Of a stretch of DNA of 64,000 nucleotides, positions 20,499 to 51,237 are shown piece by piece. The first letter of the stretch is position 1. Each line of letters begins with the position of its first letter. Source of the stretch: Granulicella paludicola. Its GTDB lineage: Bacteria > Acidobacteriota > Terriglobia > Terriglobales > Acidobacteriaceae. The notes under the pieces were generated by a model, which was given only the letters and a program-made list of their open reading frames with translations, was not told where the DNA came from and did no database searches. Location of the stretch: assembly GCF_025685545.1 (NCBI RefSeq), contig NZ_JAGSYC010000026.1, positions 496,001 through 560,000 on the forward strand. Reading direction: 5' to 3'. The position numbers were made by a program, and so were the translations under genes.

Positions 20499-20526
20499 TT
20501 GACTTTTTTATCCGAATCGCTATAAC
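20499..20526 (+). promoter_or_regulatory. Strong sigma70-type promoter
   Basis: TTGACT (20499-20504) and TATAAC (20521-20526) are separated by 16 bp, directly after the alr stop. Transcription would begin near 20532. No gene longer than 14 codons lies between it and the terminator at 20581-20615, so it appears to drive a short RNA. Confidence 0.6.
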
Positions 20527-20531
20527 TGCAT

Positions 20532-20615
20532 ATGGACGTGGACGGCTTTGCCTACGCGACCGCTTGTGGAACGTAAAAAGCCTCTGAGCGCCTGGCAGCA
20601 CCCAGAGGGGTTTTT
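20532..20615 (+). ncRNA. Candidate small RNA of about 84 nt
   Basis: A good promoter at 20499-20526 and an intrinsic terminator (stem 20581-20608, then GGTTTTT) bracket a transcript of about 84 nt. It contains only a 14-codon frame starting with ATG at the predicted first nucleotide (MDVDGFAYATACGT), so a leaderless peptide cannot be excluded. Its 3' end overlaps the 3' end of the convergent membrane-peptide gene by about 40 nt, as in convergent type I antitoxin RNAs. The hairpin might alternatively be only the alr terminator. Confidence 0.45.
20575..20615. terminator. Bidirectional intrinsic terminator
   Basis: An 11-bp stem (20581-20591 with 20598-20608, two G-T wobbles) has a 6-nt loop CTGGCA. 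On the minus strand it is followed by CTTTTT, on the plus strand by GGTTTTT. It closes both the micro-ORF transcript (-) and the alr/small-RNA transcript (+). Confidence 0.8.
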
Positions 20616-20620
20616 CGTGA

Positions 20621-20731
20621 TCAGCGATGTAGTAAGTACAGCGCCACAGCAATCTTCGAGAGCAGGAAGAGAATTACTTCTCCCGGCACCTGCATCGAAA
20701 ACCGCCCGCAGCGAACCCGAACGGCTCGCAT
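20621..20731 (-). CDS. 36-residue membrane peptide (small ORF)
   Basis: ATG 20731 has a near-perfect SD, AAAGGAGG, with 9 nt between AGGAGG and the start. The peptide has an Arg-rich N-terminus (four Arg in the first ten residues), then a hydrophobic helix VILFLLSKIAVALYLL and a His-Arg end: a single TM span with a positively charged cytoplasmic side. The stop is 12 bp before a strong terminator. The SD lies inside a folded leader (20741-20844). The family is unknown. The candidate roles are a type I toxin-like peptide or a small regulatory membrane subunit. A 73-codon frame over the same bases has its SD too close to the start and looks non-protein-like. Confidence 0.55.
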   Translation of the reverse strand: MRAVRVRCGRFSMQVPGEVILFLLSKIAVALYLLHR

Positions 20732-20740
20732 AAGGCATCA

Positions 20741-20844
20741 CCTCCTTTACAGATCGCCCCGAAGCTCTTACTTCGGGGCATTCGCTTTCAGGGCGAACTT
20801 CTCAGTCGGCGGCTCCCTGTGCGAGCCAGCTCTGTAAAGGCAGG
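20741..20844 (-). ncRNA. Structured 5' leader: four-way junction sequestering the Shine-Dalgarno
   Basis: On the minus strand, P1 pairs 20831-20840 with 20744-20753 (10 bp) and extends 3 bp past a one-base bulge (20842-20844 with 20741-20743), covering the AAAGGAGG of the downstream micro-ORF. Three hairpins lie inside: P2 GGCTC/GAGCC (20811-20827), P3 TTCGC/GCGAA (20781-20797) and P4, a 9-bp stem GCCCCGAAG/CTTCGGGGC (20756-20779). The P2 loop GCACAGG and the P3 loop CCTGAAA can form a 4-bp kissing pair CAGG/CCTG. I do not recognise a known riboswitch class. Confidence 0.55.
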
Positions 20845-50637: not shown

Positions 50638-51237
50638 ATGCGTCTCGGGTACTTTGGCGGCTCCTTCGATCCACCTCATCTCGGCCACCTTGCCGTAGCG
50701 CGAGCGGTCGCGGATACATACGCGTTAGATCGCATATTGATGGTGCCAACAGGCAATCAGCCATTGAAACCAAATGGCGCGACGGCTTCTTACTCCGATC
50801 GATTCGCGATGGTGAGGTTGTTGTGTGAAGGCGATCCGCGCCTGCAGGCCTCGGCGATTGAAGCACCGACGGATCCGCCCAGGCCAAACTACACCATCGA
50901 CACGCTACGGCGGTTGAAGGCGGAAGGGCTCGATACGGAGTTGTTTGTGGTGGTGGGGGCCGACGCCTTCCATCAGTTACTGCTGTGGCGTGAGCCCGGA
51001 AGCCTGCTGGCGATCGCGGAATGGATCGTGGTGACACGCCCGCACGCCGCGAACGATGAGCTGAGTCTGCCTCCATTGACGACGGCGCAACGCAACCGTG
51101 TGCATACCTTGAGCACACTCGATCACCCTGCCTCTGCAACTGCCATCCGCGCGGAGCTCGCAAGCGGAGGCGACTGCGCTGGGATGCTCTCGTCAGAGCT
51201 GCTTGCCTACATCCGCGAACACCATTTGTATCGCTAG
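50638..51237 (+). CDS. nadD: Nicotinate-nucleotide adenylyltransferase
   Basis: The 199-residue enzyme makes deamido-NAD from nicotinate mononucleotide and ATP. It has the HxGH nucleotidyltransferase signature GGSFDPPHLGHL (8-19), the MVPTGNQPLK substrate loop, RPNYTIDTLR, VVGADAFHQLLLW, VVTRP and a terminal ASATAIRAELASG corresponding to the ISSTxIR motif. Its neighbour rsfS is the usual partner, and nadD-rsfS pairs are widespread. Confidence 0.95.
   Translation: MRLGYFGGSFDPPHLGHLAVARAVADTYALDRILMVPTGNQPLKPNGATASYSDRFAMVRLLCEGDPRLQASAIEAPTDPPRPNYTIDTLRRLKAEGLDTELFVVVGADAFHQLLLWREPGSLLAIAEWIVVTRPHAANDELSLPPLTTAQRNRVHTLSTLDHPASATAIRAELASGGDCAGMLSSELLAYIREHHLYR

Follow-up and report, generated by a model that had tools for sequence, protein, structure and literature searches.

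A family of small-peptide loci with a covarying RNA leader in Acidobacteriaceae, probably type I toxin-antitoxin modules

In the stretch of 64,000 nucleotides from Granulicella paludicola that was analyzed here (the window), a short locus between alr and a hydrolase gene probably belongs to a hitherto undescribed family of two-RNA modules, each standing alone in the genome, most likely of the type I toxin-antitoxin (TA) kind. Its minus strand, from 20856 to 20574, constitutes a complete small transcription unit with promoter, leader, Shine-Dalgarno sequence (SD), open reading frame (ORF), and terminator, and a second promoter converges on it from the plus strand. As judged by sequence comparison, this RNA-regulated peptide family is new. 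Since leader and peptide are conserved together, the stem that locks the SD (P1) covaries, and the convergent promoter is kept, the fit to a type I reading is far better than chance. The features of the locus are as follows.

20499-20504 and 20521-20526, plus strand: convergent promoter of the putative antisense RNA, TTGACT and TATAAC with a 16-nt spacer, read in the sequence and kept across copies.
20533-20617, plus strand: candidate short antisense RNA, ~84 nt long and terminated at the shared hairpin, as promoter and GGTTTTTCG tail suggest.
20533-20789, plus strand: alternative long antisense RNA of ~257 nt, which would end at P4 and span ORF and SD.
20574-20608, minus strand: mRNA terminator, a 12-bp hairpin (20608-20581) with CTTTTT, called by terminator scan, the 3' hairpin being near-universal in copies.
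20621-20731, minus strand: 36-codon peptide gene (basic N terminus and one hydrophobic segment), from homologs and frame test.
20660-20689, minus strand: P5 hairpin within the ORF, over the VPGE codons, from synonymous-codon shuffles.
20737-20748, minus strand: SD AAAGGAGGUGAU, 12/12 match.
20738-20844, minus strand: structured leader, four-way junction P1 to P4, from fold (z, -5.7), covariance model (CM) homologs, and covariation.
20744-20753, minus strand: P1 3' strand UCUGUAAAGG, overlapping the SD, from fold and covariation.
20756-20779, minus strand: P4 hairpin, 9/9 pairs covarying; its plus-strand reading is terminator-like with tail ATTCGCTTTC and is called as a terminator.
20781-20797, minus strand: P3 hairpin UUCGC-CCUGAAA-GCGAA, with CCCUG (20789-20793) as the partner of the P2 loop, from loop-loop complementarity.
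20812-20828, minus strand: P2 hairpin, loop with CAGGG (20815-20819), read in the sequence; P2 varies among copies.
20831-20840, minus strand: P1 5' strand CCUUUACAGA, anti-SD-like, with compensatory changes in 10/10 P1 pairs.
~20841, minus strand: predicted start of the peptide mRNA at the first base of P1, from the position of the extended -10.
20856-20848, minus strand: promoter of the peptide mRNA, extended -10 TGC GATACT (TGCGATACT), a motif found at P1 across copies.

Homologous leaders were recovered by CM and peptide searches as 43 copies from 16 Acidobacteriaceae genomes, with up to six per genome, the set having been enlarged to 43 with a peptide profile and two covariance models. 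When 61 related genomes were searched at the DNA level, one congener proved to carry a syntenic copy and two more elsewhere, and in an order-wide CM search true copies were present in ~4% of 397 genomes, by our reading after inspection of the hits; several weak CM matches were dropped as ordinary GC-rich terminators of the clade. The source genome holds a single copy, one Terriglobus MAG holds up to six, and the cultured type strain Granulicella rosea DSM 18704 holds four, which makes the system testable. Among the family loci no gene recurs as neighbor on a fixed side, and no copy was found on plasmids, phages, or viral contigs. In some copies the leader is kept while the ORF is gone (L084) or carries an in-frame stop (L104). 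The lack of a recurrent neighbor, the multiple copies, and the lost or broken ORFs favor the TA reading. L084, L104, L090, and L128 are decayed, by ORF loss, in-frame stop, or P3 insertion. Comparison across the copies shows the leader fold, the coding ORF, both promoters, the 3' hairpin, and the absence of conserved partners. The notion that the signals fell together by chance between alr and the hydrolase gene, with no element present, could draw on the single copy in this genome and its ordinary neighbors; it is refuted by homologs, covariation, and conserved promoters, and we give it next to no weight.

The leader of the window folds as a four-way junction at -53 kcal/mol (z, -5.7; 0/200 shuffles as low). 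When the start codon is included, the lowest-energy fold of the window sequence differs from the four-way form, which thus rests on covariation and not on energy alone; an alternative fold of the window that pairs the start codon does not hold generally, going by visual inspection of five other copies. In the alignment of 37 leaders, pairing holds in 94.1% of cells and two-sided changes occur in 25/26 pairs. The covariation score of 0.582 compares with 0.206 for shuffled alignments (0/500 as high) and at most 0.096 for slid ones, the alignment having been fitted to the tested structure, which favors it, and the gap to the slid controls being large. Compensatory changes are found in 10/10 pairs of P1 and covariation in 9/9 pairs of P4 and also in P3; the length and sequence of P2 and of the junction differ between copies. 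The covariation shows that the RNA fold of the leader is genuine, and an intramolecular stem sequestering the SD is present, supported by P1. The first-pass annotation had drawn this junction with the SD in P1 and had named P1 covariation as a check; the fold and the 37-sequence covariation bear it out, with compensatory changes at every P1 pair. No Rfam 15 family matched the leader at gathering or relaxed thresholds.

The CAGGG of the P2 loop is complementary to the CCCUG of the P3 loop, and this loop-loop pair co-varies among copies (UUGAGC/GCUCAA, GUCAC/GUGAC, GUGGAG/CUCCAC, and others). Complementarity between the loops is 14.8, compared with 12.5 +/- 0.35 when each loop is matched with one from another copy (highest value in 300 swaps, 13.6), and for divergent loops alone it is 15.3 versus 11.7 +/- 0.6. 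In some copies 8 to 9 nt of the P2 loop (L2) are complementary to P3, extending into the P3 stem, and a mutually exclusive fold is therefore possible there. Purine-riboswitch-like kissing-loop junctions likewise consist of P1 with two neighboring hairpins joined by loop-loop pairing, whereas the present leader has an extra P4, no invariant ligand core that we could see, and no Rfam match. The main rival explanation enters here, in which a riboswitch-like or stress-sensing leader, responding to ligand, ion, or temperature, governs a small membrane protein that is beneficial and the antisense RNA only tunes it. An elaborate and strongly covarying junction with loop-loop pairing and the SD in P1 is what such a leader would look like, as is an L2-P3 complementarity that competes with P3 in the manner of a two-state switch. 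However, known riboswitch regulons do not look like these stand-alone, patchy, multicopy, and decaying loci with very diverse peptides and no pathway neighbors; P2 and the junction are variable, and riboswitches do not come with a conserved convergent promoter. We consider this explanation unlikely, at roughly one chance in five.

The minus-strand ORF from 20731 to 20621 has 36 codons with the product MRAVRVRCGRFSMQVPGEVILFLLSKIAVALYLLHR and is preceded by the SD AAAGGAGGTGAT, a 12/12 match to the ideal located 9 nt upstream of the ATG; the ORF had been called before, with an SD then described as near perfect, and both hold. The window peptide has a KD19 of 1.87. A transmembrane-like segment lies in frame in 32/39 copies and in 0 and 0 in the other two frames, the family ORFs are stop-free in frame, differences by codon position 1, 2, and 3 number 79, 53, and 113, and pN is below pS in 17/17 compared pairs (which are not independent, with pS near saturation). 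By these frame-specific patterns the ORF codes for a peptide, and a small hydrophobic peptide on a stand-alone mRNA is what a type I TA locus calls for. Start codons, a few bases past the SD, are ATG in 31 copies, GTG in 3, CTG in 2, TTG in 2, and ATT in 1; L003, L004, and L002 have non-ATG starts (CTG, TTG, and ATT) at the aligned start position. Two main peptide types (MRxVRVxW...VPxExxxxLL and LGxAKAxGSVxVxGxLxLxIVxxL...) go with a common leader. Leader and peptide, whose homologs in related genomes had been named as a check on the locus, are co-conserved in the 43 copies. Representative peptides had no significant match in Pfam, NCBIfam, PHROGs, or PADLOC, and among nine representatives no Fst, Ldr, or other toxin profile was hit in Pfam/NCBIfam at E<=5; the lack of a toxin-family match counts against the TA reading.

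Structure runs on into the ORF, where hairpin P5 (codons 11 to 16) exceeds synonymous-codon shuffles in stability, with a mean z of -1.32 and a standard error of 0.15 over 42 members. This, together with start codons that vary among ATG, GTG, TTG, CTG, and ATT, would suit a transcript that is itself functional, a sponge or regulatory RNA in which the ORF is embedded and the peptide is secondary. Frame-specific hydrophobicity, a stop-free frame, variation that falls mostly on third codon positions, and the 12/12 SD argue the other way, and we regard a functional transcript of this kind as quite improbable, at about one chance in ten.

Both promoters recur in the family. The convergent promoter has the consensus TTGACA-N17-TNNAAT and lies just beyond the 3' hairpin in most copies. 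It scores at least 7.3 in 25/43 copies, compared with 13/744 control windows (1.7%) from the same loci, and its best -35 starts with TTGAC in 31/43 copies versus 6.6% of controls. The enrichment is confined to one 300-nt window and the strand adjoining the element (59% versus 0 to 7% elsewhere), and predicted antisense starts cluster 3 to 5 nt outside the mRNA 3' hairpin. In about one-fourth of copies the promoter is low scoring, a point against the TA reading. The sense promoter is an extended -10 (TGnRATACT/CATAAT) at a fixed distance from P1, scoring at least 4.5 in 43% of 46 copies compared with 0 to 3% at 15 control positions; no -35 was found for it across copies. With a consensus on the convergent side and a sense promoter that lacks a -35, the antisense promoter should be the stronger one, which is what an antitoxin would call for. 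The plus-strand promoter (TTGACT, 16 bp, TATAAC) of the earlier reading is thus present in the sequence and conserved across the family. That reading is borne out with corrections; it had overlooked the minus-strand promoter, the P2-P3 loop pairing, and the in-ORF hairpin.

A GC-rich hairpin near the stop codon is found in nearly every copy, and in the window (20581-20608) it is followed by GGTTTTTCG on the plus strand and CTTTTTACG on the minus strand. It is asymmetric, since the G-U pairs of the minus strand turn into A-C mismatches when the plus strand is read (-21.8 kcal/mol on the mRNA strand versus -12.9 kcal/mol on the antisense strand). Across copies the best 45-nt folds are -22.0 on the mRNA strand and -18.9 on the antisense strand, a strand difference of -3.05 compared with -0.52 in controls; the weaker antisense-strand hairpin is a point against the TA reading. 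A terminator scan of the window called the shared hairpin on the minus strand and P4, at 20756-20779, on the plus strand, and across copies T makes up 0.40 of the antisense-strand sequence that follows P4, versus 0.20 for background. The asymmetry and the P4 call make the 84-nt RNA one of two possible lengths; P4 may equally well end the antisense RNA at ~257 nt, across ORF and SD. An RNA of that length would account for repression and also for why the A-rich P3 region is conserved. The first-pass annotation had placed a bidirectional terminator here, giving an RNA of about 84 nt; on the minus strand the terminator was called, while on the plus strand the hairpin is weak and P4 was called instead. 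The same annotation had put forward the type I class, which gains from the homologs, the P1 covariation, and the conserved convergent promoter, with the short RNA from a bidirectional terminator left uncertain. Complementarity between antisense RNA and leader shows no excess (18.4 observed versus 18.9 for swapped partners), which also counts against the TA reading. When the 3' hairpin loop is read on the antisense strand, the YUNR U-turn motif by which known antisense RNAs start pairing occurs in 20/42 copies versus 12.7 expected (p 0.008).

From this arrangement we infer that both RNAs are produced, that the antisense RNA represses, and that the peptide is toxic. In such a type I scheme, the weak extended -10 promoter would yield an mRNA of ~267 nt starting at P1, whose fresh leader would immediately adopt the four-way junction, held by pairing of the P2 and P3 loops, so that P1 buries the SD and the new mRNA is silent. 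The stronger consensus promoter beyond the terminator, facing the gene, would make an antisense RNA that pairs with the 3' hairpin and, if read through to P4, also with ORF and SD, thereby blocking or destabilizing the mRNA. Should the antisense RNA drop or P1 open, the strong SD would drive synthesis of a basic membrane peptide of ~36 amino acids that would impair the membrane. A more specific version is a doubly gated toxin mRNA, in which a pseudoknotted, possibly signal-sensing junction leader and a convergent antisense RNA control one strong SD, with P3/P4 both forming part of the mRNA fold and terminating the opposing RNA; we offer it tentatively, as possible though with the odds somewhat against it. 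We know of no described type I system with a dual gate whose leader hairpins act as the opposing terminator.

Among known systems, aapA1/IsoA1 of Helicobacter is present in several copies per chromosome. It combines a cationic membrane peptide of 30 amino acids, a strongly folded mRNA, and a cis antisense RNA (PMC8309996). The present family resembles it in its small cationic membrane peptide, folded mRNA, cis antisense RNA (here predicted), and several copies; it differs in the convergent promoter beyond the 3' hairpin, and overlap would be full only if the antisense RNA reaches P4. In Bacillus, bsrG/SR4 and txpA/RatA have hydrophobic peptides of the 38-amino-acid class, an antisense RNA over the mRNA 3' end, and SD sequestration (PMC8309996). 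The hydrophobic peptide, the (predicted) antisense overlap of the 3' end, and SD sequestration recur here, whereas the SD is locked by the leader's own P1 and there is no peptide homology. Point by point, save for the direct repeats, the predicted anatomy here matches that of par of plasmid pAD1 (Fst, RNA I-RNA II), a type I TA locus of the Fst/Ldr family, which has convergent promoters, an mRNA of ~230 nt, a convergent antisense RNA of ~40 nt, a hydrophobic toxin of 33 amino acids, an SD-sequestering 5' stem-loop, and a terminator hairpin common to mRNA and short antisense RNA (PMC7472228). Here, by contrast, the leader is a four-way junction with loop-loop pairing, there is no antisense-leader complementarity of the direct-repeat type (for a second pairing site of this type in the leader, complementarity equals that of swapped controls), the terminator is asymmetric, the toxin sequences do not match, and the hosts are Acidobacteriota. 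As for Fst/Ldr features, convergent promoters surround the 3' hairpin and the hairpin is stronger on the mRNA strand; lacking known toxin homology, the family is not assignable to Fst/Ldr. Our searches of PMC open-access papers turned up nothing on type I TA loci in Acidobacteriota. If the reading is true, a family with its own RNA architecture joins the type I systems, convergent two-RNA control of the par kind is present, or evolved a second time, beyond the Firmicutes, and a covarying leader is open to direct probing.

Matches of family f6 (L117, L119, L123, and L149) were excluded from the copy count; they apparently lack P1/P2 and are located behind another gene. They carry a P3/P4-like hairpin and a strong SD, followed by a short nonmembrane peptide (VRIQxGDxVVTIEIP), and a transposase-like gene lies downstream in both L117 and L119. 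Elsewhere in the window, ARAGORN places a predicted selenocysteine tRNA, with anticodon tca, at 50816-50898 of the minus strand.
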